From positions 1-53,445 of the forward strand of contig CAMYXA010000004.1 in the NCBI GenBank assembly GCA_947302975.1: a stretch of 53,445 bases of DNA, in the 5' to 3' direction. Every line of letters starts with the position of its first letter. Position 1 is the first letter of the stretch. Made by a program: the position numbers and the translations under genes. The notes under the pieces were generated by a model, which was not told where the DNA came from, ran no database searches, and was given only the letters and a program-made list of their open reading frames with translations. Positions 27,710 through 41,940 of this stretch are shown here, piece after piece. This DNA comes from an uncultured Candidatus Saccharibacteria bacterium (GTDB lineage: Bacteria; Patescibacteriota; Saccharimonadia; Saccharimonadales; Saccharimonadaceae).

Positions 27710-28117
27710 ATGAGAAGACCAAGAGAACTGAACGGTGATATAGTTTTTATAGGCAGAACCGGAAAGATGATGCGACCGGCAGCGGAAAACGAGGTTCGTT
27801 TTCACTTTAAGCTCTATGATGAAATAACGAATTCAATTTCATATTTCACTGCTGTTCTAACCATCGTGGGCTATGACGTCGAGACCGAAACGCTCATCCT
27901 CGCAGCCTATAAGAATAGTGGCATCAATATCGTTACGGCCGCATCGGCTGCAAAAGCGTTTCTTCGTCATACTGGAAGTATCGCAACCGCGAAGAACTAT
28001 CTCGGCCTCAATGTAAAGGAGGTAGTAAGAAACGTCCAGATCATCCTCGTCGAGGAAGAAACATCCATCACCATGCCGAAACACATTTCGGTTTCAGGAC
28101 TTAAAGCGCAGGGTTAA
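27710..28117 (+). CDS. Hypothetical protein (135 aa), orphan
   Basis: AAAGGAGG Shine-Dalgarno before ATG 27710; no recognised motif. Confidence 0.78.
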   Translation: MRRPRELNGDIVFIGRTGKMMRPAAENEVRFHFKLYDEITNSISYFTAVLTIVGYDVETETLILAAYKNSGINIVTAASAAKAFLRHTGSIATAKNYLGLNVKEVVRNVQIILVEEETSITMPKHISVSGLKAQG

Positions 28118-28134
28118 TCCCTGCGCTATTTTTT
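28105..28134 (+). terminator. Intrinsic terminator overlapping stop codon
   Basis: AGCGCAGGG-TTAAT-CCCTGCGCT-ATTTTTT. Confidence 0.8.
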
Positions 28135-28219
28135 GCGCAAAAAATCACGAAAAATCCTCAAATTTTAAGATAAAAACCCTTGTAAATCACCAAGAAACGT
28201 GATAAAATAGCTGTGTTAT

Positions 28220-28266
28220 CTAGACGAAGGAGTAGGTCCACCCCTGGAAACCACTCGTAGGTCTAG
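28220..28266 (+). promoter_or_regulatory. Long hairpin in rplC operon leader
   Basis: CTAGAC/GTCTAG, GAGT/ACTC, GG/CC, TCCA/TGGA stacked with a GAAG/GTAG internal loop, right after promoter TTGTAA-N17-TAAAAT. Confidence 0.65.
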
Positions 28267-28305
28267 TTTTAATAGTGTTAAAAAATTTAAGGGAAAGGAA
28301 ATAGA

Positions 28306-28926
28306 ATGCAAGTCATTCTCGGCACCAAAATTGGTATGACCCAGATCATCGGCGCAGATGGCGTTGTAACTCCTGTTACAATCCTTCAAGCCGGCCCAGC
28401 CACAGTGACTCAGATTAAAACCGTCGAAACCGATGGTTATAACGCTGTGCAGGTGGGTTACGGTCAGGGTAAGAATCTGAGCAAGTCGGTTTCCGGCCAC
28501 CTCAAAAAGGCTGGAGAAAATATCAACCCTAAGGTCCTTAAGGAATTCCGCGTTGAGGAACTTCCTGAAGGCATGAAACTTGGTGACGTTATCACCGTCG
28601 AAAGCTTCAACCTTGGTGATAAGGTCGCTGTGACCGGTATCTCAAAAGGTAAAGGCTTCGCTGGTACCGTCAAGCGCTGGAACTTCCAGGAATCCCGCAA
28701 TACCCACGGCTTCAAGGGTGACATTCGTAAAGTCGGTTCTATCGGCTCAATGTACCCACAAAAAGTCTTCAAGGGTAAAAGGATGCCAGGACGTATGGGC
28801 CACGACCAAGTTACTGTTAAAAATCTTGTTGTCGCCTACATCGACAAAGAAAACAACCTCCTTGGCCTCAAGGGCGCTGTCCCAGGTCCAAAGAACGGCA
28901 TCATAAGCGTGGAGGGAAAGGACTAA
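28306..28926 (+). CDS. rplC: 50S ribosomal protein L3
   Basis: ILGTKIGMTQI; GKGFAGTVKRWNF; GSIGSMYPQKVFKGKRMPGRMG. Confidence 0.96.
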   Translation: MQVILGTKIGMTQIIGADGVVTPVTILQAGPATVTQIKTVETDGYNAVQVGYGQGKNLSKSVSGHLKKAGENINPKVLKEFRVEELPEGMKLGDVITVESFNLGDKVAVTGISKGKGFAGTVKRWNFQESRNTHGFKGDIRKVGSIGSMYPQKVFKGKRMPGRMGHDQVTVKNLVVAYIDKENNLLGLKGAVPGPKNGIISVEGKD

Positions 28927-28927
28927 T

Positions 28928-29530
28928 ATGGCTACATTAAACAAAGATGTCTTCGGCCTCTCAGTCGAAAACCACGAACTTATCAAACTCGCTTATGACG
29001 CATACCTCGCAAACTCACGCAGCTCTCATGCAAAAACCATGACCCGCGCAGAAGTTAGCGGTGGTGGTAAAAAACCATGGAAACAAAAAGGTACTGGTCG
29101 CGCACGCTTCGGCTCATCCCGCAACCCTATCTGGCGCCATGGTGGTGTTGCCTTCGGTCGCACCGGTGAAGAAAACTTCACCAAGAGACTTAGCAAAACC
29201 GCTAAGAAAGTCGCTATTCGTCAGGCTCTCAGCCTTAAGAATGCCGACAAAGCTATCATCACTATCGAAACCTTTGCTTGCCCTAAAGGCAAAACCAAAG
29301 AAACTATCGAAATGTTGAAAGCTAACAAAATCGCTGAAAACGCAAACGTTCTCTTGGTAGTTTCAGAAAAAGACGAACTCGTCCTTCGCGCAACCAACAA
29401 CGTTGCTAACCTCAAGGCTGTTCGCCCAACTTACCTCAACGTTTTCGATATCATGAACGCAGACAAAATCGTTATTACTGAAAAAGCTTTGCCAATGATC
29501 AAAGATTGGCTAATCGGAGAGGAGAAGTAA
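28928..29530 (+). CDS. rplD: 50S ribosomal protein L4
   Basis: GGGKKPWKQKGTGRARFGSSRNPIWRHGGVAFG. Confidence 0.96.
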   Translation: MATLNKDVFGLSVENHELIKLAYDAYLANSRSSHAKTMTRAEVSGGGKKPWKQKGTGRARFGSSRNPIWRHGGVAFGRTGEENFTKRLSKTAKKVAIRQALSLKNADKAIITIETFACPKGKTKETIEMLKANKIAENANVLLVVSEKDELVLRATNNVANLKAVRPTYLNVFDIMNADKIVITEKALPMIKDWLIGEEK

Positions 29531-29531
29531 T

Positions 29532-29954
29532 ATGGCAACCAAAGAAACCAATATCAAACTCCACCTCTTGGAACCACGCGCAACCGAGAAAACCTATCGT
29601 GAACAAGCTAAGCGCACCTATGCTTTCGTCGTCAAAAAGACCGACACCAAGCAAGCAATCGCAAAGCTCGTTGAAAAAGAATTTGGTGTTACCGTCACCG
29701 ATATCCGCACTTTGATTCGCGACGGCAAGAAAACCAAATTTAGCAAAGGCAAACACGCTTATCCAGGCATCACTCATCGCCAGGACAAGAAAATCGCCTA
29801 CGTTACATTGAAAGATGGCGACTCAATCAAAGTATTTGAAGAGCCAGAAGCTGATAAAAAGGCTGAAAAAGCCGTAAAAAGCGACGCAAAGGAAGCCAAA
29901 AAAGCTGAAAAAGCTAAAAAGGCAGACAAGAATGCCGCTAAGGAGAATAAATAA
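29532..29954 (+). CDS. rplW: 50S ribosomal protein L23 with Lys/Ala-rich tail
   Basis: Position between L4 and L2; EKTYREQAKRTYAFVVKKTDTKQAI; tail KKAEKAVKSDAKEAKKAEKAKKADKNAAKENK. Confidence 0.92.
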   Translation: MATKETNIKLHLLEPRATEKTYREQAKRTYAFVVKKTDTKQAIAKLVEKEFGVTVTDIRTLIRDGKKTKFSKGKHAYPGITHRQDKKIAYVTLKDGDSIKVFEEPEADKKAEKAVKSDAKEAKKAEKAKKADKNAAKENK

Positions 29955-30790
29955 TGAGTATTAAAGCTTATCGCCCAACTACTCCAGCCCAACGTCAAAA
30001 AACGACTGAGGACTACGATCAAATCACGACCAAGAAGCCTCTAAAATCCCTTCTTCAATCCAAGAAGCAAATGGCTGGTAAAAACAATGCTGGTCGTATC
30101 ACCGTCCGCCATCGTGGTGGTGGTGTCAAACGCCATTATCGTATCTTGACTCACAACCTTCCAAAGAATCTTACTTTGACCGTTGAAGAGATCGAGTACG
30201 ATCCAAACCGCAGCGCACGTATCGCTCGTGTTAAGGATCAAAACGGTGTTTATTACTATGTTATTGCTGACACCAAGATGACTAAGGGTACCACCTTCTC
30301 AACTGGTGACGAAGCTTCTGTTGAAGATTCCAACCGTATGGCTCTCGAAAACATCCCAGTCGGTACCTTCGTTTACGCAATCGAAATCACCCCAGGCCGC
30401 GGCGCTCAAATGGTCCGCGCAGCTGGTGCTTCTGCTCAGCTCATGGCAAAAGAGAACGGCTATGCCACTCTTAAGATGCCATCTGGCGAAGTTCGCAAAG
30501 TTCTCGCAACCTGCGAAGCTTCTATCGGTGTAGTTTCCAACCTTCAGCACCAAAACGTTAAGATCGGTTCAGCTGGTCGCCGCCGCCGCAAAGGCATTCG
30601 CCCAACGGTTCGTGGTGTCGTTATGAACGCAACCGACCACCCACACGGTGGTGGTGACGGTGGTCGCCACGGTACTGGTAAAGCACCACGTACTCCATGG
30701 GGCCAACTCACTCTCGGTTATCGTACCCGTCATAATAAGAAAACTAATAAAATGATCGTGCGCAGTCGCCACGAAGGAAAGAGGAAATAA
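29954..30790 (+). CDS. rplB: 50S ribosomal protein L2
   Basis: [43 protein letters not shown]. Confidence 0.97.
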
Positions 30791-31083
30791 TGTCTCGTAG
30801 CCTTAAAAAAGGTCTATTCATAGACTACAAACTCGCAAAGAAAGTTGCCGCTCTCTCCGCCGAAGACCGCACCGTTATTAAGACTTGGGCTCGCCAGTCA
30901 ACCATCTCTCCAGAAATGGTCGGCCGCACCATCGCCGTTCACAACGGTCGCATGCATGTCCCAGTTTTCATCTCGGAAAATATGGTCGGTCACAAGCTTG
31001 GTGAATTCGCGCCAACTCGTAAATTTAAACGCCACGGTGGTAAAAAAGCTGCTGAGGCCGCTGCTGCGAAAGGAAACAACTAA
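30790..31083 (+). CDS. rpsS: 30S ribosomal protein S19
   Basis: [42 protein letters not shown]. Confidence 0.96.
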
Positions 31084-31085
31084 TT

Positions 31086-31460
31086 ATGACTACTACTCAT
31101 TTCGCACACGCATATGAAAAAGGTATCGACAGCCAGCCAAGGAAAACTAGCGTAGTCGCTAGCCTCGTCCGCGATCGTTATGTCGCCGACGCTGTCGTCA
31201 TCCTTGAAAACACCCCACGCCGCGCAGCTAAAGCTGTCCGCAAGGCTATTGAATCAGCAAATGCAAACCTCTTGAACAACTCAAAGGTTTCCATTGATCC
31301 AAAAACTGTTCGTATCTCACGCATCTCAGTAACTGCAGGCACACGCATGCGTCGTTATGTCCCAGCTTCTCGTGGTCGCGCTTTGCCATACGAAAAGGTA
31401 TCAAGTAACATCTTTGTCGAGGTCGCCGGCGAAGAAAAAGTAAAGAAGGAGAACAAGTAA
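31086..31460 (+). CDS. rplV: 50S ribosomal protein L22
   Basis: RISVTAGTRMRRYVPASRGRALPYEK; operon position. Confidence 0.92.
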   Translation: MTTTHFAHAYEKGIDSQPRKTSVVASLVRDRYVADAVVILENTPRRAAKAVRKAIESANANLLNNSKVSIDPKTVRISRISVTAGTRMRRYVPASRGRALPYEKVSSNIFVEVAGEEKVKKENK

Positions 31461-31461
31461 C

Positions 31462-32091
31462 ATGGGTCAGAAGGTTAATCCCATCTCTTACCGTCTCCAA
31501 GTCAGCAAAGACTGGTCTTCCAAATGGTTTACTTTGAAGAAGTCCGACTTCCGCAAGTACTTGGCCGAAGACGCTAAGATCCGCGAAGTGGTCGAAAACC
31601 GCTTCAAGGCTCGCCCGACTATTGCTAAGGTCAATATCGAGCGCTCCGCCAACCTTACCACCGTTATCATCTTCACCGCTAAAGCTGGTGCAGTGATCGG
31701 CAAGCAGGGTGCAGGCATCAACGAACTCAAAAAAGAGCTCGAAAAAATCGTTGACACCCCAATTCGTATCAACGTTGAAGAAATTAAAAAACCAGAACTA
31801 AACGCCAAACTCGTCGCTGAAAACATCGGTTTCCAACTCGGAAAACGTATGAACTTCCGCCGCGCAGTCAAGATGGCACTTCAATCAACCATGAACGCTG
31901 GTGCAAAAGGTGTTCGTATCGAAGTTTCTGGACGTCTTAACGGTGCTGAAATGTCCCGCCGTGAAAAGTTCATCGAAGGCTCAGTGCCTCTACATACTCT
32001 TCGCGCCGACATCGATTTCCACTGCTTCCACGCTCCAACCATCGCTGGTATCGTTGGTGTTAAAGTTTGGATCTACAAGGGAGAGAAATAA
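31462..32091 (+). CDS. rpsC: 30S ribosomal protein S3
   Basis: MGQKVNPISYRL; KH domain; VSGRLNGAEMSRREKFIEGSVPLHTLRADIDF. Confidence 0.97.
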   Translation: MGQKVNPISYRLQVSKDWSSKWFTLKKSDFRKYLAEDAKIREVVENRFKARPTIAKVNIERSANLTTVIIFTAKAGAVIGKQGAGINELKKELEKIVDTPIRINVEEIKKPELNAKLVAENIGFQLGKRMNFRRAVKMALQSTMNAGAKGVRIEVSGRLNGAEMSRREKFIEGSVPLHTLRADIDFHCFHAPTIAGIVGVKVWIYKGEK

Positions 32092-32093
32092 TT

Positions 32094-32513
32094 ATGGCTA
32101 TTTTACTTCCAAAGAAAACTGCACACCGCAAGGTTCGCAAAGGTAAAAACGAAGGCGTCGCAACCCGCTGTAACACGGTTGCTTTCGGTGATTACGGTCT
32201 CATGTCTATGGACAACGAGCGCGTAACTAGCCGCCAAATCGAAGCTGCCCGCCAGGCTATCACTCGTTACATCAAACGTGGTGGTAAAATCTGGATCCGC
32301 ATCTTCCCACACACCCCAGTCACCAAGAAGCCTCTCGACGTTAAAATGGGTTCCGGTAAAGGTGAACCACAATTCTTCGTCGCTAAGGTCAAAGCTGGCA
32401 CAGTTATGTTTGAAATCGCTGATGTTACTGAAGAGCAAGCCAAAGAAGCCCTTCGCTTGGCTTCCCACAAGCTCCCAGTACGCTGCAAAATAATTAAGAA
32501 AGAGGAGTTCTAA
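32094..32513 (+). CDS. rplP: 50S ribosomal protein L16
   Basis: LLPKKTAHRKVRKG; GGKIWIRIFPHTPVTKKPLDVKMGSGKG. Confidence 0.95.
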   Translation: MAILLPKKTAHRKVRKGKNEGVATRCNTVAFGDYGLMSMDNERVTSRQIEAARQAITRYIKRGGKIWIRIFPHTPVTKKPLDVKMGSGKGEPQFFVAKVKAGTVMFEIADVTEEQAKEALRLASHKLPVRCKIIKKEEF

Positions 32514-32514
32514 T

Positions 32515-32814
32515 ATGGCACACACATTAGCAGGGATCGTTACCTCGGACAAGCGTGATAAGACCATTACCGTCTCCATCGCCAGCCGTGAAACACACCC
32601 TCTCTATCGCAAGCAATATACTCACACTCGTAAGTACACTGCTCACGATGAAAGCAACGAAGCAAAACTCGGCGATCGTGTCGAGATCGTAGAATGCCGC
32701 CCATTCTCAAAGACCAAATCCTACAAATTGGTTAAGGTCCTCGAGCGTGCTCACGGCACCGTCGAACTAAAAGAAGAAGTCACCGACGTTCTCCCAGAAA
32801 AGGAGGAAGCATAA
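32515..32814 (+). CDS. rpsQ: 30S ribosomal protein S17
   Basis: [55 protein letters not shown]. Confidence 0.95.
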
Positions 32815-32815
32815 T

Positions 32816-33184
32816 ATGATACAACAGGAAACCCGTCTTAAAGTAGCCGACAACAGCGGCGCCAAGGAACTTGGTGTCATCCGCGTTCTCGGCGGTACCC
32901 GCGCCCGCTACGCACATGTTGGCGATATCGTCACTTGTAGCGTTAAAGACGCTGATCCACATGGCAACACCAAGAAGAAAGCTGTCGTTAAGGCAGTTAT
33001 CGTCCGCACTGTTGCTCCAATTCGCCGTCCTGATGGATCAACCATCCGCTTCGATGAAAACGCCGCCGTCCTCGTGAACGACGATAAGACTCCAAAAGGC
33101 ACCCGTGTCTTTGGTCCTATCCCACGTGAACTTCGTGACCTCGGCTTCAACAAGATTATCAGCTTAGCACCGGAGGTACTCTAA
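32816..33184 (+). CDS. rplN: 50S ribosomal protein L14
   Basis: [27 protein letters not shown]. Confidence 0.97.
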
Positions 33185-33185
33185 T

Positions 33186-33464
33186 ATGGCACAGAATTTG
33201 AAAACCGGTGATAAGGTTATGATCATTGCAGGCGCCAAAAAAGGCACTTCCGCCAAGATCGTTAAGGTCAAAGACGGCAAAGCTTGCCTCGAAGGCATCG
33301 GCATTCGCGAACGTCACATGAAGAAATCTTATTTGAACCCACGCGGTGGCAAGAAAGATATTCATGTTGGTATCGATCTCTCAAACTTGAAGCTCGTTGA
33401 AGCTGCTAAGTCAGAGAAGAAAGCTGAGAAAAAATCCGCTAAAGCTAAGAAAGGAGCTAAATAA
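33186..33464 (+). CDS. rplX: 50S ribosomal protein L24 with Lys/Ala-rich tail
   Basis: KTGDKVMIIAGAKKGTSAKIVKV KOW motif; operon position. Confidence 0.93.
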   Translation: MAQNLKTGDKVMIIAGAKKGTSAKIVKVKDGKACLEGIGIRERHMKKSYLNPRGGKKDIHVGIDLSNLKLVEAAKSEKKAEKKSAKAKKGAK

Positions 33465-34036
33465 TGGCAGATGCTAAATATGTACCACGCCTAAAGGAGC
33501 TCTACACTAAAGAGCTTAAGGCGAAACTCATGAAGGAACTCGATATCAAGAACGTTAGCCAAGTTCCTGAACTTAAAAAAGTTATCGTTTCTTGCGGTGT
33601 TGGCAAAAAACGTGAAGATAAGAAATTCACCGAGACTGTCGAGCTTACTCTCGCCAAAATTACTGGCCAAGCTCCAACCTCACGCCTCGCTAAGAAATCA
33701 ATCGCAACCTTCAAAATCCGTAAAGGCATGGGTGCCCCAGTTGGTTACCTCGTGACCCTTCGTAACGACAAGATGTACGAATTTGTCGATCGTCTTATCA
33801 ATATTGCACTTCCACACGTTCGTGACTTCCACGGCGTTTCTAAGACTGCATTTGATAAACAAGGTAACTACAACCTCGGTCTCAAAGAACAAACCGTCTT
33901 CCCAGAAATCACCTTCGAAGATGCTTCAGTTCTTCACGGCCTTGAAGTAACATTCATTATTAAAAATGGTTCAAAGGAAGGAAGCCTAAAATTGTTAGAA
34001 CTCTTCGGAATGCCGTTTGTTAAGGAGGAAAAGTAA
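33464..34036 (+). CDS. rplE: 50S ribosomal protein L5
   Basis: [49 protein letters not shown]. Confidence 0.96.
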
Positions 34037-34037
34037 G

Positions 34038-34307
34038 ATGGCTAAGAAATCTGCAGTCCTCCGCGACGAAAAACGCCGCAAAATGTACGAAAAATACGCT
34101 GCAAAGCGTGCTGAGCTTAAAGCTGCTGGTGACCAAGAAGGTCTCCAAAAGCTCCCAAAGAACAGCTCAATCACTCGTCTCAAAAACCGTGACCTCCTCG
34201 ATGGTCGTCCACGTGGTTATATGCGCCGCTTCGGTATGAGCCGTATTACCTTCCGTGAAAAAGCAAGCAAGGGCGAAATCCCTGGTGTAACAAAGAGTAG
34301 CTGGTAG
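34038..34307 (+). CDS. rpsN: 30S ribosomal protein S14 (zinc-independent type)
   Basis: [44 protein letters not shown]; no CXXC. Confidence 0.95.
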
Positions 34308-34322
34308 GAGAAAGGAAAAGAT

Positions 34323-34724
34323 ATGTCATTACAATCAACAGATCAAATCGCTGACCTCATCACCCGCATTCGTAACGCTGACATGGTCGGCAAAAAAGAA
34401 ATCCGTGTCGCTACCTCCAAGCTAAAAGTTGCCGTTATTGACACCCTCGTCAAAAATGGCTACCTCAAGAGTTACGATGTTGAGGAAGGTAAACCACGTG
34501 GTATTCTCCACGTTGTGATTGCTGACGCTAACGAAGCTTCTCGCATCAATGAAATCGAGAAAGTTTCTAAGCCAGGTCGCCGTGTCTACACTGCCGCCGA
34601 AGATATCCCAACCATCAAATCTGGTCGTGGTATCGTCATCATCTCAACCTCCAAAGGTTTGATGACCGGCAAGGAAGCCAAGAAGAATCGTCTTGGTGGC
34701 GAAATCCTCGTCAAAGTTTGGTAA
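34323..34724 (+). CDS. rpsH: 30S ribosomal protein S8
   Basis: DQIADLITRIRNADMVGKKEI; GRGIVIISTSKGLMTGKEAKKNRLGGEILVKVW. Confidence 0.96.
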   Translation: MSLQSTDQIADLITRIRNADMVGKKEIRVATSKLKVAVIDTLVKNGYLKSYDVEEGKPRGILHVVIADANEASRINEIEKVSKPGRRVYTAAEDIPTIKSGRGIVIISTSKGLMTGKEAKKNRLGGEILVKVW

Positions 34725-34743
34725 AAGTTTGACCGCTTCACGA

Positions 34744-34774
34744 AAATATCTCCCTTCCACGGGAGATATTTTTT
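34744..34774 (+). terminator. Terminator after rpsH
   Basis: AAATATCTCCC-TTCCAC-GGGAGATATTTTTT. Confidence 0.85.
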
Positions 34775-34838
34775 GCGCCGCTCTAACAGGGGTAAAACTT
34801 TACAAATTAGCATAAACGTGATATAATAAGAAAATAGT

Positions 34839-35057
34839 ATGAAAATCACCGTCATCGTAAAAACCGGCTCGAAAAAAGGCCCTCTCGTGGAGCCTGTTTC
34901 CGACACTTCGCTTCGAGTCTATCTTCGCGAAAAGCCGCACGATGGCGAGGCCAACGCGGCCCTCATGAAGCTCCTGTCAGACCACTTAAACGTTCCAAAA
35001 ACTTCAATCAAAATCGTGGCTGGCGCAAAATCTCACGTCAAAATTATAGAGTGCTAA
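34839..35057 (+). CDS. DUF167/YggU family protein
   Basis: VYLREKPHDGEANAALMKLLSDHLNVPKTSIKIVAGAKSHVKII; TATAAT upstream of ATG. Confidence 0.88.
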   Translation: MKITVIVKTGSKKGPLVEPVSDTSLRVYLREKPHDGEANAALMKLLSDHLNVPKTSIKIVAGAKSHVKIIEC

Positions 35058-35079
35058 TCTTAAAAATTAGCACTTTTTT
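35051..35079 (+). terminator. Intrinsic terminator
   Basis: GTGCTAAT-CTTAAA-AATTAGCAC-TTTTTT. Confidence 0.8.
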
Positions 35080-35143
35080 GTGCTTGCGCTTTTATTCGAA
35101 ACCGCATATACTTAAATAAGAGTAAAAGAGTAAGGAGTTAAAA

Positions 35144-37759
35144 GTGGAGGACACTAAGAGAAGGTTTCTCATTATGGCCTGTGCGTCAATTGGCGTGATG
35201 GCTATTTTTGGTGCTGTTTATGGCATCATCAACAATAACAACGCGGATCAGAACGTTCCGGAAACTGCCGTTCAGACCAAACCAAACAAAAACACTAGAA
35301 TTTCAATCCCAAAAACCTCAGCAGACGAAGAATCTGAAGAGGAAACAGCGGAAACCACACTCCCATCCGATGAACAAATCGCAGCTTATGTAAACCAACA
35401 TACCTATGATGGTGTCGCTCAGAACACTGGCGTTCCATCAAATTCTGGCACGGACACCCCAACCAACCCAGAAAATCCAACCAATCCAGAGAATCCGACT
35501 AACCCGACCGAGCCAGAAACCCCAGCTGAACCAGATCCAACTAATCCAGACGACCCAACCTACGGCGACTATATTCACGAAGGCGACGGAGTTGAACTTT
35601 CTGACGAAGTTGTCTATATGCAGAACTTCGAATACAGCCGCTTTGGCGAGATGGAATACGACACTGAATATGAAATTGTCGACGCTCGCGATGGCAAAGC
35701 CTACACGATCAAAAAGGTCCAAATGAACCGAAAAGACCATGTTGTCATGGTTGAAGACTTGCAACTCGGCTCAACCGAGAAACCAATGGTTTTGACTCCA
35801 ACCTACTCAAATGTCAAAGAAACCACCATCCTTCCGAAGAGCTCTGATATCGCGGAACTCGACGAAAACTCTACCGAGCCAAATAACTCCATCAACATCG
35901 ATGGCGACACTTATCTCTACTCTCCAATCGCCGCCCTCGCAGGCCAAGATGACTCCTCCAAATTGGAAGCATATAACGACTATAACGGCGAAGTCTCAAT
36001 CTGTCCAAAAGGTTGGCGCCTACCGGCCGTCATGGAAGACTATGTCTATAGGGGCTACGACACCGAAACTGATTTCTCAGAAGAGACCCATGCGGTAAGT
36101 AATGGCTATGGTGATGAAACACATTATGCTTCTTCAACTTGGCGTAGATTTGTCAATAACGACGCCACCATCTATGCCCATGCAAGTGATGGCTTTCATG
36201 AACGCTCGGTGGCCGATCCTCAAAACGTCCATGTACGCTGTATCTTCGGTGCACCACTCTATGAACACGCAATCGTAACATATGACGGCAATGGCGGCAC
36301 TCTTGAATTTGCCGGCAAAGAGGGAATGGACAGGATCTCAGTCGGTCAATCTTATTCAAAAGCATCCAATGACTACTGGGAAGCAATGTATCCATCACTC
36401 GCGGTCTACCATCAGATGCCATATCCAAAGTTTGAGGTTTCTAACTGGGATGGCCCATCACCAACCCGTGAAGGCTACGTCTTCTTTGGCTGGGCTCTAG
36501 ATAAAAACGCCACCACGCCAGACTATACAGTCGATAGCTACATTGGATTTAATGAGGATATCACGCTCTACGCCGTTTGGCTCTCCGAGAATGACACTGT
36601 CACCATCACTAGGAATAGTAATGGCTACGTTGAACCTGTTGATTCAGAAACAATTTACGGCGGACGCGAAGTTGTTGAAATTAATCAGAATGACTTCACT
36701 AAGCTCGACGGCAACGTCTATATCGCCAAGATCAATGCGCACGGCGTATGTGAGTATAGCAACTCTACTGTCATGAGAATCAACTACAATCTTGCTGCCG
36801 GGGACAAGCTTTATATCTACAATACCTATGAAGAAGCAGAGTGGTTCAGGGATGATGAAGTGGCAATCGAAGCGAACGGTCTATATGTGGATATACTAAC
36901 CGGTTCTGGAACCATTAATCTTGATATGAACACGGAGTCTTCGGTCGGTCTCATTCTCGTAAAGAGCGGCAATTCAACCTTGAATATCAAGGCAATTGGT
37001 GGCCGCTGCGAAATTGAGCCAAGCAAACATTGGTGGAACCAAGGTGGATTTGAATCCCAGGGTTATCGTCTACTAGGTTGGTCGACTGATCCGAACGCTA
37101 CCGAGCCAACGTATGGGGCATGGCTATACGACAACGACGATCTTCTCCCACTCGATTTCATCACGGAAGATACGACACTCTATGCAATCTGGGAACAGCC
37201 AAGTAGCATAACTTTGAACGTCGCTCCATCTAACTTCTCGGATGGCAGCACAACTAGGACCTTCAGATACTTCCCTTCAAGCGATGCTCATGCTGAAGTC
37301 TTCACTACAGACGACGATGAAGTAAAGCGAGAAGTCCATTATCGCGGTGGACCAAACTACGCATTCGTCAAATTAACCGAAGAGCAGGAAGATGCTGGCG
37401 CAAGAGTCTGCGTTATTGAAGGTACTCTTCCAGACATTCCGATGGTACGCGCTTGTTCTGGAGCTTCAATCGATACCAACAGGGGTGGCACGAATTCAGT
37501 ATTTAAGGCTGACATAATCACTGTCTTTGTTGACTTCGGAGATCTCCCAGCGGGTTCCGAGATTGAAGTCTATGTGAGCGGCGACGTCGACTGGGTTGAT
37601 GATGGCGACATGGAGTTCTACCCTCAGGATCAAGATTCATTCGTCGGCTGGTCAACTACCCCTAATACCGCCACACCAGAATTCTTGCCGGATGAATTAC
37701 GATACTACATGATGTTCGGGCCGAAAAACGCAACCCTTTACGCAGCCTACGCTGAGTAA
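35144..37759 (+). CDS. Membrane-anchored surface protein: Pro-rich stalk, FISUMP domain, InlB_B-like repeats
   Basis: GTG start after AAGGAG; TM FLIMACASIGVMAIFGAVYG; NPENPTNPENPTNPTEPETPAEP stalk; SICPKGWRLPAV...VRCIFG; REGYVFFGWALDKNATTPDY...ITLYAVW, GYRLLGWSTDPNATEPTY...TTLYAIW, SFVGWSTTPNTATPEF...ATLYAAY. Confidence 0.85.
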   Translation: MEDTKRRFLIMACASIGVMAIFGAVYGIINNNNADQNVPETAVQTKPNKNTRISIPKTSADEESEEETAETTLPSDEQIAAYVNQHTYDGVAQNTGVPSNSGTDTPTNPENPTNPENPTNPTEPETPAEPDPTNPDDPTYGDYIHEGDGVELSDEVVYMQNFEYSRFGEMEYDTEYEIVDARDGKAYTIKKVQMNRKDHVVMVEDLQLGSTEKPMVLTPTYSNVKETTILPKSSDIAELDENSTEPNNSINIDGDTYLYSPIAALAGQDDSSKLEAYNDYNGEVSICPKGWRLPAVMEDYVYRGYDTETDFSEETHAVSNGYGDETHYASSTWRRFVNNDATIYAHASDGFHERSVADPQNVHVRCIFGAPLYEHAIVTYDGNGGTLEFAGKEGMDRISVGQSYSKASNDYWEAMYPSLAVYHQMPYPKFEVSNWDGPSPTREGYVFFGWALDKNATTPDYTVDSYIGFNEDITLYAVWLSENDTVTITRNSNGYVEPVDSETIYGGREVVEINQNDFTKLDGNVYIAKINAHGVCEYSNSTVMRINYNLAAGDKLYIYNTYEEAEWFRDDEVAIEANGLYVDILTGSGTINLDMNTESSVGLILVKSGNSTLNIKAIGGRCEIEPSKHWWNQGGFESQGYRLLGWSTDPNATEPTYGAWLYDNDDLLPLDFITEDTTLYAIWEQPSSITLNVAPSNFSDGSTTRTFRYFPSSDAHAEVFTTDDDEVKREVHYRGGPNYAFVKLTEEQEDAGARVCVIEGTLPDIPMVRACSGASIDTNRGGTNSVFKADIITVFVDFGDLPAGSEIEVYVSGDVDWVDDGDMEFYPQDQDSFVGWSTTPNTATPEFLPDELRYYMMFGPKNATLYAAYAE

Positions 37760-37760
37760 T

Positions 37761-37788
37761 AAAAATCCCGCGAAAATGCGGGATTTTT
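37761..37788 (+). terminator. Intrinsic terminator
   Basis: AAAATCCCGC-GAAAAT-GCGGGATTTTT. Confidence 0.85.
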
Positions 37789-37846
37789 CTTGTATTTTAA
37801 GGGGCGATATGGTATAATTACCAAGATATTAACAATAAGGGAAAAT

Positions 37847-38383
37847 ATGAGTCGTATCGGAAAACAACCTATCGATATTCCGGCAGGAGTGACAATTACG
37901 GTCGGCGACAAAGAGATTACTGTCGCAGGACCAAAAGGTTCACTCGTTGTCCCGGTTCAACCTCAGACCGAAACTAAGGTCGAAGGTACTCAAATCGTCG
38001 TCACTAGAAAAGATGACGAACCAAAATCTCGTGCTTGGCATGGCCTTCAGCGCGCATTGCTCAACAATGCCGTCCAAGGTGTAACCAAAGGTTTCGAGAA
38101 AAAACTAGAAATTAATGGTGTCGGCTTCCGTCTATCTGGCGGTGGCAAGTCCATCGAAATGGCCCTCGGTTTTTCACACCCAGTGAAATACGAAGCTCCA
38201 GAAGGTGTCGAACTCACCACTAACAAAATGGAAATCACTGTCTCTGGCATCGACAAACAAAAGGTCGGCCAAGTTGCAGCTGAAATCCGTAGCCTTAAGA
38301 AACCAGAACCATACAAGGGTAAAGGTATCAAATATGTTGATGAAGTTATCATCCGTAAGGCTGGAAAGGCAGGTAAGAAGTAA
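37847..38383 (+). CDS. rplF: 50S ribosomal protein L6
   Basis: MSRIGKQPIDIPAGVTI; PEPYKGKGIKYVDEVIIRKAGKAGKK. Confidence 0.96.
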   Translation: MSRIGKQPIDIPAGVTITVGDKEITVAGPKGSLVVPVQPQTETKVEGTQIVVTRKDDEPKSRAWHGLQRALLNNAVQGVTKGFEKKLEINGVGFRLSGGGKSIEMALGFSHPVKYEAPEGVELTTNKMEITVSGIDKQKVGQVAAEIRSLKKPEPYKGKGIKYVDEVIIRKAGKAGKK

Positions 38384-38712
38384 TGAAAGCTGAATTTAGA
38401 GCTAATCGTACTCGTGCGAAGATTCACGGTACTGCAGAACGCCCACGCCTAAGCGTGAATTTCTCAAATCTTCACATCACTGCCCAAATCATCAATGATG
38501 ACAAAGGTGTTACCCTCGCTTACGCCACCACCGTTGGCCAAAAGCTCACTGGCACCAAAACCGAGAAAGCTGCCGAAATTGGTAAGCAAATCGCAGCCAA
38601 AGCCAAGAAAGCAAAAATCTCCAAAGTCGTCTTTGATCGTGGCTCAAAACTATATGCTGGTCGCATGTCCGCTCTTGCTGACGCTGCCCGCAAGGAAGGA
38701 TTGGAATTCTAA
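38383..38712 (+). CDS. rplR: 50S ribosomal protein L18
   Basis: RTRAKIHGTAERPRLSVNFSNLHITAQIINDDKG; VVFDRGSKLYAGRMSALADAARKEGLEF. Confidence 0.95.
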   Translation: MKAEFRANRTRAKIHGTAERPRLSVNFSNLHITAQIINDDKGVTLAYATTVGQKLTGTKTEKAAEIGKQIAAKAKKAKISKVVFDRGSKLYAGRMSALADAARKEGLEF

Positions 38713-38714
38713 TC

Positions 38715-39335
38715 ATGGCCGAAGAAGCAAAAGTTATTAACAAAGCTGGTACTCTCAAAATGACCGACGAGGTCGCTGCAAAGAAAGATACCAAAGACAT
38801 CAATGGCAAACGCATTGATCGCCGCAATCGCCGTGATCGTGTCAAAGCCGATGTTGCTCCAAAAGAATTCGACGAAATCACCATCGCTGTCGATCGCGTT
38901 TCTCGCACCGTCGCTGGTGGTCGCCGCATGCGCTTCAAAGCACTTGTTGCTATTGGAAATCACAAGAACAAAGTTGGTATTGGCGTAGCCAAAGGTAACG
39001 ACGTTACCACCGCTGTCGCAAAAGCCACTTCAAAAGCTAAAAAGACAATGATTACCTTCGCTATGGATGGTGAAACTATCTGCCACGAAGTCGAAGCCAA
39101 GGTCACTGGCGCAAACATCATCATGAAGCCAGCTGCTCCTGGTACCGGTATTATCGCCGGCGGTACCGTCCGTTCTATCATGGGTCTCACCGGAGTCAAG
39201 AACCTCATTTCTAAATCTCTCGGTTCAACCAACAAGGTAAACATTGCTTACGCTGTTATTGAAGGTTTGAAAGCTCAAGTTCCTCGCTCTGAGTGGACTG
39301 GTGCTAAAAAAGCCGCCAAAAAGGAGACTAAGTAA
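38715..39335 (+). CDS. rpsE: 30S ribosomal protein S5
   Basis: VSRTVAGGRRMRFKALVAIGNHKNKVGIGVAKGNDVTTAVAKA. Confidence 0.96.
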   Translation: MAEEAKVINKAGTLKMTDEVAAKKDTKDINGKRIDRRNRRDRVKADVAPKEFDEITIAVDRVSRTVAGGRRMRFKALVAIGNHKNKVGIGVAKGNDVTTAVAKATSKAKKTMITFAMDGETICHEVEAKVTGANIIMKPAAPGTGIIAGGTVRSIMGLTGVKNLISKSLGSTNKVNIAYAVIEGLKAQVPRSEWTGAKKAAKKETK

Positions 39336-39799
39336 TGAAATATAATGATTTAGTTGTTGAGAGAAATTCTCGCCCAACCCGCAAGGGTCGTGGTATCTCC
39401 GCTGGCCAAGGTAAAACCGCTGGCCGTGGTACCAAAGGTCAAAAAGCCCGCACCGGTCACCGCAAAATGGCTGCCGGATTCATGGGTGGCCAACGTGCCA
39501 TCATGCAAGCTATTCCAAAGCTCAAAGGCTTCAAGAGCTTGCACGCTAAGGCTGAAGTCGTCTACACCGATCGTTTGAACGATCTCAAAGGCAACGTCGA
39601 CAACTTCGTCCTCGCAGATAAGAATCTTATCTCAACCCCATACACCAAAGTCAAGGTTATCACCCGCGGTGAACTCACTGCTAAGATCGACCTCGAGACT
39701 CAATTCGCTTCCAAAACTGCAATCGCAGCATTGAAAAATGCCGGTGGTAGCTTCAAAAAAGTTCCTACCCCAATGCGCCCAGCCAAGAAAGCTGAATAA
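39335..39799 (+). CDS. rplO: 50S ribosomal protein L15
   Basis: KGRGISAGQGKTAGRGTKGQKARTG; GGSFKKV C-terminus. Confidence 0.95.
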   Translation: MKYNDLVVERNSRPTRKGRGISAGQGKTAGRGTKGQKARTGHRKMAAGFMGGQRAIMQAIPKLKGFKSLHAKAEVVYTDRLNDLKGNVDNFVLADKNLISTPYTKVKVITRGELTAKIDLETQFASKTAIAALKNAGGSFKKVPTPMRPAKKAE

Positions 39800-39804
39800 T
39801 TATA

Positions 39805-39833
39805 AAAGATGGTCCTTCGGGGCCATCTTTTTG
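39805..39833 (+). terminator. Terminator after rplO
   Basis: AAAGATGG-TCCTTCGG-GGCCATCTTTTTG. Confidence 0.8.
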
Positions 39834-39880
39834 TTGGGAAAATGTAGTATAATTAAGAGAGTAAAAAGTGGAGAAAACCT

Positions 39881-40597
39881 ATGAATCAGGACGCGCTGAA
39901 AACCAGCACTAAACAAAGAATTATTATCGCTCTCATCGCGATTGTGATGCTTGGCTCAATTATTGCCTCATATGCTGCAATCGTCATTGGCGGCAACGGC
40001 TCATCAAAGAAAACTAGCCAAACTAGCGACAACGAACTCGTCGAAAAAGCTCAAAAAGAATATGATGCTGCCGCAAACGAAATCTACGGTAACCAAGATT
40101 ATTTCAATGAATTCGTTGCAATGAAGAATAATGTCGTTGCCTTCAACGAAGTTTCCGCAAATGAAAACGGCTTGGTCGCAAAAGATTTGAAAGTCGGTTC
40201 CGGACGCGAACTCGCTGATGGCGATCTCAACTATGTCGCCTTCTATATCGGCTTCTGTGCCGACGAGAGCATCTTCGATTCGTCTCTCAACTCAACCACA
40301 AACCCAACCGCATTCAAGGGTGGTCTTGATGTCACCTCAATCGGCTCACTTATCGAAGGTTGGAACCTTGGTGTTGTCGGTATGAAACTCGGCGGCATCC
40401 GTGAAGTCACTATCCCAGGCGAACTCGCCTATGGCAGCGCCATGGAAATTTGCGGCGGTTTGAACAAGCCTCTCAAATTCATTATCATGGCCGTCGATCA
40501 AACCGATAAGCTCAATCTCGCCAGAACCAAACTTCAATACGCTCAAATGGGAATCGACTACGATAGTCTAAACGTCCAGTCTGGCGCCGAGGAATAA
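39881..40597 (+). CDS. Membrane-anchored FKBP-type peptidyl-prolyl isomerase
   Basis: N-terminal TM; LIEGWNLGVVGMKLGGIREVTIPGELAYG...PLKFIIMAVD. Confidence 0.9.
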   Translation: MNQDALKTSTKQRIIIALIAIVMLGSIIASYAAIVIGGNGSSKKTSQTSDNELVEKAQKEYDAAANEIYGNQDYFNEFVAMKNNVVAFNEVSANENGLVAKDLKVGSGRELADGDLNYVAFYIGFCADESIFDSSLNSTTNPTAFKGGLDVTSIGSLIEGWNLGVVGMKLGGIREVTIPGELAYGSAMEICGGLNKPLKFIIMAVDQTDKLNLARTKLQYAQMGIDYDSLNVQSGAEE

Positions 40598-41940
40598 TGA
40601 ATAAACAAACCTTCTTCTTTTACGATTTGGAAACGTCGGGCTTAAGTCCACGTGACGATCGTATTATGCAGTTTGCCGGTCAGCGCACCGATCTTGATTT
40701 AAATCCAATCGGTGAGCCAATCAATGTGCTCCTCAAAATCAACGACGACACGTTGCCAAGCCCAAGTGCCATCATGGTGACAAAGATTACCCCACAGAGC
40801 ACTCTTCGCGATGGCCTGACCGAAGCTGAATTTGCCAAATTCGTAACCGAAGAAGTTTTCACTCCAAACACAATCGCTGTTGGATATAACACAGTCCGTT
40901 TTGATGATGAATTTATGCGCCACCTATTTTGGCGTACATTCTACGATCCATATGAATTTGAGTGGAAAGATGGTCGCAGTCGCTGGGATCTTCTCGACGT
41001 AGTTCGCCTCACCCGCGCGCTTCGCCCGGAGGGAATTAACTGGCCGGTCACGGAAGATGGCAAGGCCACCAACCGTCTCGAACTCATCACGAAGCTCAAC
41101 AACATTTCTCACGAACACGCCCACGATGCCGAAGCCGATGTCCAGGCCTCAATCGATGTCGCAAGATTAATTCGCGACAAGCAACCAGATCTATTCAACT
41201 TCCTATTTAAGATTCGTGGCAAAAACGACGTCAAGAAAATTGTGAACCTAGAGAACAAAACTCCGTTCGTCTATGCTTGTGGCCGCTACTCGGCGGAGCA
41301 CGAAAAGACCACGGTCGCCTTTCCTTTGACGGCTGGCCAAAACGGCAACGTCATGGTTTTTGATCTTCGTTACAATCTCGAAGAAATGGACCCAGAAAAA
41401 ACCTATCCAATCGTCAAAGAACTTTGCCTCAACAAATGTCCAGCCGTGGCGCCACTTGGTGTTCTCGACAAAGCTGATGGTTGGAAGAAGATTGGACTCA
41501 CCAAGGAAACGGTCGATAAGAACCTCGAAATCCTTTTGACTCATCCAGAGTTTGCTGAAAAAATGCGCGAAAAAGTTGAGAATCATCCTGAATATGCTCC
41601 ATCTATCGATCCGGAATCAGCGCTCTATGACGGCTTCTTGAACGACCGTGATCGCATTCGTTGCGAAGCAGTCCGAAACGCCAAGGAAAACGAACTTGCC
41701 GACTTCAACCCAGAATTTGTCGACGAACGTCTCCCGGAACTTCTCTTGCACTACAAGGCCAAAAACTTCCCACGCACCCTGACTTCCGACGAAGAAGAAA
41801 AATGGCAAGCCTATCGCCACGCTCGCCTCGAGCGCCAGGCGCCAAAGTTCTTACTCGAGCTCGAAAAGGTAACCGACGATTACATCAAAGAAGAGCTAAG
41901 ACTCTACTATGAATCCCTAAACGACAGTGACTATTCATAA
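40597..41940 (+). CDS. sbcB: Exodeoxyribonuclease I-like (DEDDh exonuclease)
   Basis: FFFYDLETSGLSPRDDRIMQFAGQRTD; AVGYNTVRFDDEFMRHLFWR; SHEHAHDAEADVQASIDVARLI. Confidence 0.9.
   Translation: MNKQTFFFYDLETSGLSPRDDRIMQFAGQRTDLDLNPIGEPINVLLKINDDTLPSPSAIMVTKITPQSTLRDGLTEAEFAKFVTEEVFTPNTIAVGYNTVRFDDEFMRHLFWRTFYDPYEFEWKDGRSRWDLLDVVRLTRALRPEGINWPVTEDGKATNRLELITKLNNISHEHAHDAEADVQASIDVARLIRDKQPDLFNFLFKIRGKNDVKKIVNLENKTPFVYACGRYSAEHEKTTVAFPLTAGQNGNVMVFDLRYNLEEMDPEKTYPIVKELCLNKCPAVAPLGVLDKADGWKKIGLTKETVDKNLEILLTHPEFAEKMREKVENHPEYAPSIDPESALYDGFLNDRDRIRCEAVRNAKENELADFNPEFVDERLPELLLHYKAKNFPRTLTSDEEEKWQAYRHARLERQAPKFLLELEKVTDDYIKEELRLYYESLNDSDYS

Follow-up and report, generated by a model that had tools for sequence, protein, structure and literature searches.

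Pneumococcal cps, between dexB and aliA, and the Klebsiella K locus are sites at which capsule and surface-antigen genes are exchanged between conserved flanks, and insertions into the spc operon of ribosomal protein genes occur in Corynebacterium. Here we analyzed the junction between the spc genes rpsH and rplF in an uncultured Candidatus Saccharibacteria bacterium (family Saccharimonadaceae), starting from a stretch of 53,445 nucleotides (assembly GCA_947302975.1, contig CAMYXA010000004.1; hereafter the window), and in its relatives. In the genus to which the window belongs, this junction is probably a genus-wide locus of fast-changing cell-envelope genes.

Like the cps and K loci, the junction holds variable envelope genes between conserved flanks, shows whole-cluster replacement in close lineages and carries the Wzz/CpsB/LCP set. 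In contrast to them, it is flanked by the split halves of the spc operon, its occupants are capsule clusters in some genomes and unrelated giant surface proteins in others, and we can only infer homologous exchange. The broken spc operons of Corynebacterium and Fusobacterium likewise indicate that spc order is not absolute, but the accounts consulted describe neither variable surface cargo nor genus-wide turnover. In one table, Fusobacterium nucleatum nucleatum is marked '-' for the spc cluster (PMC1924603). Haloquadratum walsbyi has a variable genomic island of cell-wall and surface genes in many versions (PMC4535781); that island varies within one archaeal species, whereas the cargo described here varies among the members of a bacterial genus and sits within an essential-gene operon. 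We found no earlier report of such a hotspot in Saccharibacteria in the open-licence literature, which is weak evidence of absence. Studies of synteny and phylogeny use the gene order of ribosomal-protein operons as a near-universal anchor; in this genus, fast-changing surface genes sit in mid-operon.

Occupancy of the rpsH-rplF joint

We searched 174 genomes of the genus for rpsH and rplF. Both genes were collinear on one contig in 102 genomes, with a gap of at most 185 bp in 15 and of 538 bp to 55 kb in 87 (median distance over all 102, 4.5 kb). They lay on different contigs in 33 further genomes and were rearranged in one. In G016 (contig C6), rplF precedes rpsH by 72 kb, both genes being on one strand, and the spc halves are thus rearranged.

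Outside the genus, the picture was uniform. The 62 genomes from elsewhere in the order, which include two other genera of the family, all had rpsH and rplF adjacent (at most 278 bp apart), in agreement with the initial annotation, which had called these genes normally contiguous. Because of this, the ancestral state was most likely adjacency, with the opening a feature of the genus. The difference between the genus and other genera has a Fisher p of 3e-31, to be read with the reservation that the genomes lack phylogenetic independence. Between rplN and rplO, the other seven junctions were all closed, none exceeding 296 bp (76-90 genomes measured per junction), and rplN-rplX-rplE-rpsN-rpsH was tightly packed in all genomes checked. 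Among the joints tested, therefore, only rpsH-rplF accepts DNA, which makes it singular in this stretch.

Envelope genes in the joint

We sorted the occupants of 91 genomes into classes by combining protein clustering with a simple hydropathy criterion and searching representatives against Pfam. This gave 43 surface or secreted, 14 capsule, 3 PGA_cap, 4 arginine deiminase, 5 rpoBC-segment and 7 other occupants, and 15 empty joints; 60 of the 76 occupied gaps thus fall into the envelope classes (surface, capsule and PGA_cap). Protein clustering sorted 331 open reading frames (ORFs) of the gaps into 140 families, 95 of them singletons. Membrane or secreted proteins made up 140 of 253 gap ORFs compared to 8 of 39 ORFs elsewhere in the window.

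In the capsule clusters, Pfam recognized Wzz with a kinase-type NTPase domain, CpsB_CapC, LytR_CpsA_Psr, UDP-glucose dehydrogenase, an epimerase, a flippase and glycosyltransferases. The other cargo included giant proteins with Cna_B, VWA, SpaA and FctA domains, a ricin-lectin protein, Big domains and FISUMP-like proteins, and PGA_cap was the cargo of the clade nearest to the window. Giant anchored proteins stood at the joint in 31 genomes. LPxTG-like sortase motifs were scarce in the cargo tails (G006, plus PPDTG in G026), so most C-terminal anchors look like membrane tails. The capsule gene cpsB was found at the joint in 34 genomes, a few of which have rpsH on a separate contig, and in 24 of the 34 it lies no more than 500 bp from rplF; G068 was left out of this count, its cpsB lying upstream of rpsH. 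About as many genomes, that of the window among them, carry cpsB elsewhere.

Two clades have cargo of another kind. An arginine deiminase operon (OTC, ADI and a DcuC-type carrier) occupies the joint in one clade (L061, L227, L229 and L214 in G013, G195, G192 and G194). In a five-genome clade (L058, L235, L238, L239 and L242 in G007, G143, G138, G109 and G086), genes resembling leuS...rnc, rpsP and rpoB-rpoC lie at the joint, with the putative rpoBC before the distal spc half; this segment was named from protein lengths and recognizable sequence starts.

Turnover between close species

On the ribosomal-protein tree, parsimony required at least 31 changes of cargo class and at least 15 changes between occupied and empty, numbers that are approximate since support is weak for several branches. 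Species separated by less than 0.05 changes per site had about three quarters of their cargo in common. At 0.05-0.10 changes per site, three of six pairs had none in common. Examples of close species without common cargo are G125/G128, G107/G189 and G000/G132. The window, with its surface protein, likewise has no cargo in common with its nearest clade (G132/G139/G152), which carries PGA_cap. Close species thus differ in their occupant, which can be a giant anchored surface protein, a complete capsule cluster, PGA_cap, arginine deiminase or another unit, and sometimes it is absent. In its constant flanks, its lineage-specific interior and the envelope functions of that interior, the joint resembles a variable surface-antigen or capsule locus.

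Three genomes (G100, G085 and G173; L240, L243 and L233) have near-identical ribosomal backbones and re-assorted capsule clusters, with several genes strand-flipped in G085.

Organization of the joint in the window

The window has the gene order rplN-rplX-rplE-rpsN-rpsH, a DUF167 gene, a gene for an 871-aa surface protein, rplF-rplR-rpsE-rplO and an FKBP-type isomerase. The genes between rpsH and rplF, all on the + strand, were found where the initial annotation had placed them. The features are:

34323..34724, + strand: rpsH (ribosomal protein S8; PF00410, 133.9 bits), left flank of the hotspot and last gene of the upstream half-operon
34744..34774, + strand: terminator-like hairpin with T-run, of the rho-independent type, 3' of rpsH, read directly from the sequence
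34799..34827, + strand: promoter-like site of the DUF167 gene, TTTACA-17-TGATATAAT, strong (11 of 12 matches, extended -10)
34839..35057, + strand: 72-aa gene of the DUF167/YggU family, belonging to the cargo, from profile matches
35048..35076, + strand: terminator-like hairpin overlapping the DUF167 stop codon, from the terminator scan
35084..35112, + strand: weak promoter-like site of the surface gene, TTGCGC-17-TATACT, read directly and absent from the scan list
35144..37759, + strand: surface protein gene, 871 aa, GTG start with AAGGAG upstream, from the ORF and profile matches
37761..37788, + strand: terminator-like hairpin 3' of the surface gene, from the terminator scan
37790..37818, + strand: promoter-like site of the downstream half-operon, TTGTAT-17-TGGTATAAT, extended -10, 28 nt before the rplF ATG
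37847..38383, + strand: rplF (ribosomal protein L6; PF00347, 116.8 bits), right flank of the hotspot

The hairpin at 34744-34774 was missing from the list of the terminator scan and was detected by a script comparing relatives. Each unit appears to be bounded by its own signals, as initially proposed, with three putative terminators and a promoter-like site before each unit, that of the surface gene being weak. An Rfam search of window positions 28000-41000 gave no matches.

The signals at the two edges recur in the relatives. A putative extended -10 promoter about 20-47 nt before rplF was present in 86 of 91 genus members, nearly all empty ones included, and in none of three outgroups; the claim that rplF has a -10 element of its own thus gained support. 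A terminator-like hairpin within 160 nt of rpsH was present in 69 of 76 occupied relatives compared to 47 of 380 shuffles (12%). With such a hairpin usually following rpsH and a separate extended -10 promoter preceding rplF, the operon has the appearance of two separable units, and DNA placed between them is predicted to leave both halves expressed.

The initial annotation had read the insert as a single adhesin cassette. This view was not upheld: because the same joint is open with different cargo in most of the genus, the unit of the window is one occupant of a hotspot. The proposed comparison of rpsH-rplF spacing also showed that the arrangement is not a gene order common to all relatives, as the content varies within the genus and sister genera are contiguous.

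The surface protein of the window

The DUF167 assignment of the smaller gene exceeds the cut-offs (PF02594, 68.4 versus 30.9 bits; TIGR00251, 68.6 versus 35 bits). Within the rpsH-rplF gap, DUF167 occurs only in the genome of the window and in G161, a separate genome with ribosomal proteins about 100% identical, which has the DUF167 and surface genes at the same junction. The two surface proteins are 93.2% identical, with 26 gap positions partly due to a longer start in G161, and the ratio of nonsynonymous to synonymous changes (dN/dS) of 0.10 indicates that the surface gene of the window is maintained by purifying selection. The distantly related G033 carries a homologue of the surface protein, with 30% identity, at the same joint.

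The protein begins with a membrane anchor (aa ~9-31), followed by an acidic Pro/Asn/Glu-rich stalk (aa ~100-140), a FISUMP-like region (aa 178-296), a List_Bact_rpt/InlB-B-type repeat (aa 438-480) and a long C-terminal part. One List_Bact_rpt/InlB-B repeat passes the cut-offs (PF09479, 30.9 versus 27 bits; TIGR02543, 34 versus 20.95 bits), and the protein is one of about six with InlB-B-type repeats in this genome. The anchor, stalk and InlB-B repeat of the initial description thus held, whereas the FISUMP match is partial and remains under the cut-offs (TIGR02145, 24.4 versus 41.65 bits, E 3.9e-5; PF09603, 14.1 versus 33.9 bits). 'FISUMP-like' is a fair label; to call it a FISUMP protein would go beyond these matches. 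A protein of G109 at the same joint does clear the FISUMP cut-off (43.8 bits). An AlphaFold2 model of the FISUMP-like region from 11 sequences had a mean pLDDT of 52, too low for a fold search.

In a comparison with the PDB, aa 439-482 resembled the B-repeat of Listeria internalin B (2y5p, 1m9s; E 0.004). The B-repeat is common to both proteins, but in the window protein we found no leucine-rich repeats or GW domains, only a single clear repeat, and the anchor is N-terminal instead of C-terminal. The best PDB match, to V8 protease chains, was rejected as it covers a low-complexity Pro/Asn-rich stretch. Judged by its anchor, stalk and domains only, the protein is probably an adhesin for the host bacterium of the epibiont or for glycans.

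How cargo might move

Homologous or homology-assisted exchange seems the most likely mechanism. Imported DNA would recombine in the flanking conserved ribosomal genes, by which cargo could enter, leave and be swapped; entry might also occur by illegitimate recombination at the joint, and not by a site-specific integrase. In G026, an 81-bp in-frame stub of the rpsH 3' end with its own terminator (L073:7305-7385) follows the full rpsH at a distance of 5.3 kb, flanked by a surface gene with a PPDTG anchor and by a capsule cluster; the difference between stub and full gene was read from the sequences. Such a remnant would be expected if a second cassette had come with its own rpsH end, and it is a single case. 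An rplF fragment in G010 was considered as a similar fossil and rejected, the fragment stopping at a contig end.

Selection for a changing surface, through attachment to host cells or escape from phages or predators, may sustain the high turnover. From what is known of the phylum, the genus would be epibiotic, and the goat-gut origin of named relatives suggests a gut association. One may go further and picture the spc operon as a platform for exchanging surface cassettes, on which the autonomous rplF promoter made the joint a landing pad and naturally imported DNA with ribosomal-gene ends swaps the whole surface phenotype, from adhesin to capsule, in one interspecies recombination step, altering which host bacterium can be attached to. 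We regard this extension as tentative and rather doubtful.

For uncultured epibionts, the rpsH-rplF interval offers a simple marker for surface type and a direct way to tie surface cargo to host range. It is also a case in which the splitting of an essential operon created an evolutionary hotspot.

Alternative explanations

The main rival is a neutral breakpoint: once rplF had a promoter, any DNA could land before it, and the surface bias would reflect envelope genes being the main accessory genes of small genomes. We take this as a serious possibility, though not the favored one. Several findings count against a dedicated envelope locus and fit this rival. The enrichment of membrane proteins was modest against a second background, the flanks in named relatives (p 0.04), and some cargo is not envelope-related (ADI, NUDIX/GNAT, Fic). 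The rpoBC-leuS-rnc-rpsP segment of five genomes, together with the 34 genomes in which the halves are split or rearranged, points to general rearrangement at the joint besides cassette exchange; secY (in G155) is found there too, and the rplF promoter is present in nearly all empty genomes. Other observations weigh on the proposed interpretation itself. Promoter and terminator function is predicted from sequence throughout, and an rpsH stub was seen in only one of 79 gaps. The distance matrices of rpsH and rplF correlate no less than the matrices of other pairs of genes and thus give no view of recombination tracts reaching into the flanks; used as a recombination test, these matrices and the pairwise per-gene distances showed no excess conflict beside the joint and gave no signal either way. 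Recurrence speaks against a neutral breakpoint. Capsule clusters of one layout, with the Wzz-CpsB end near the rplF promoter, recur across scattered clades, and giant anchored proteins do so in the 31 genomes mentioned above, a pattern that points to a favored site more than to chance insertion.

It is improbable that an integrase-type island or a transposon attaches at the rpsH 3' end. The stub in G026 is indeed what integration into a gene end leaves; however, it is so far confined to one gap, no recombinase, integrase or transposase was found by Pfam scan in the window insert or among 48 cargo proteins, and no direct repeats were found at the ends of the window insert (34725 and 37846). The inserts range from 0.5 to 55 kb without common ends except the terminator and promoter.

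Equally unlikely in our view is the initial proposal that the adhesin was placed here for high, growth-linked expression or proximity to the origin. The position in the operon would favor it, as would the orientation of the cargo, 217 of 253 gap ORFs (86%) being co-oriented with the operon. But the units appear separated by terminators and promoters of their own, the surface gene has a weak -35 box, and its codon adaptation to ribosomal proteins is mid-range at 0.57, 14th of 30 non-ribosomal genes, compared to at least 0.68 (mean 0.74) for the ribosomal proteins. The variety of cargo is better explained by selection for surface change in an organism living attached to a host than by expression at the ribosomal level.

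Finally, an assembly chimera is hardly credible even for a metagenome-assembled genome in 18 contigs, since the arrangement recurs in the separate genome G161 with diverged cargo and the joint is open in 87 genomes.

Further observations

The rpsH genes of the window and G161 have a dS of 0.25, above that of the other upstream ribosomal protein genes (0.07-0.11), despite the near-identical genomes. At 39799-40597 of the window, the operon ends at rplO and the FKBP-type isomerase follows, as in many relatives; secY is not there, and in G155 it was located within the rpsH-rplF gap (L225:6909-8315). Outside the genus, a sequence labelled Nomurabacteria (L104:1-3352; 67% rplF identity) has a trigger-factor-like gene, named by reading of the sequence, and others before rplF, without rpsH; the rpsH-rplF joint may therefore have opened elsewhere too.
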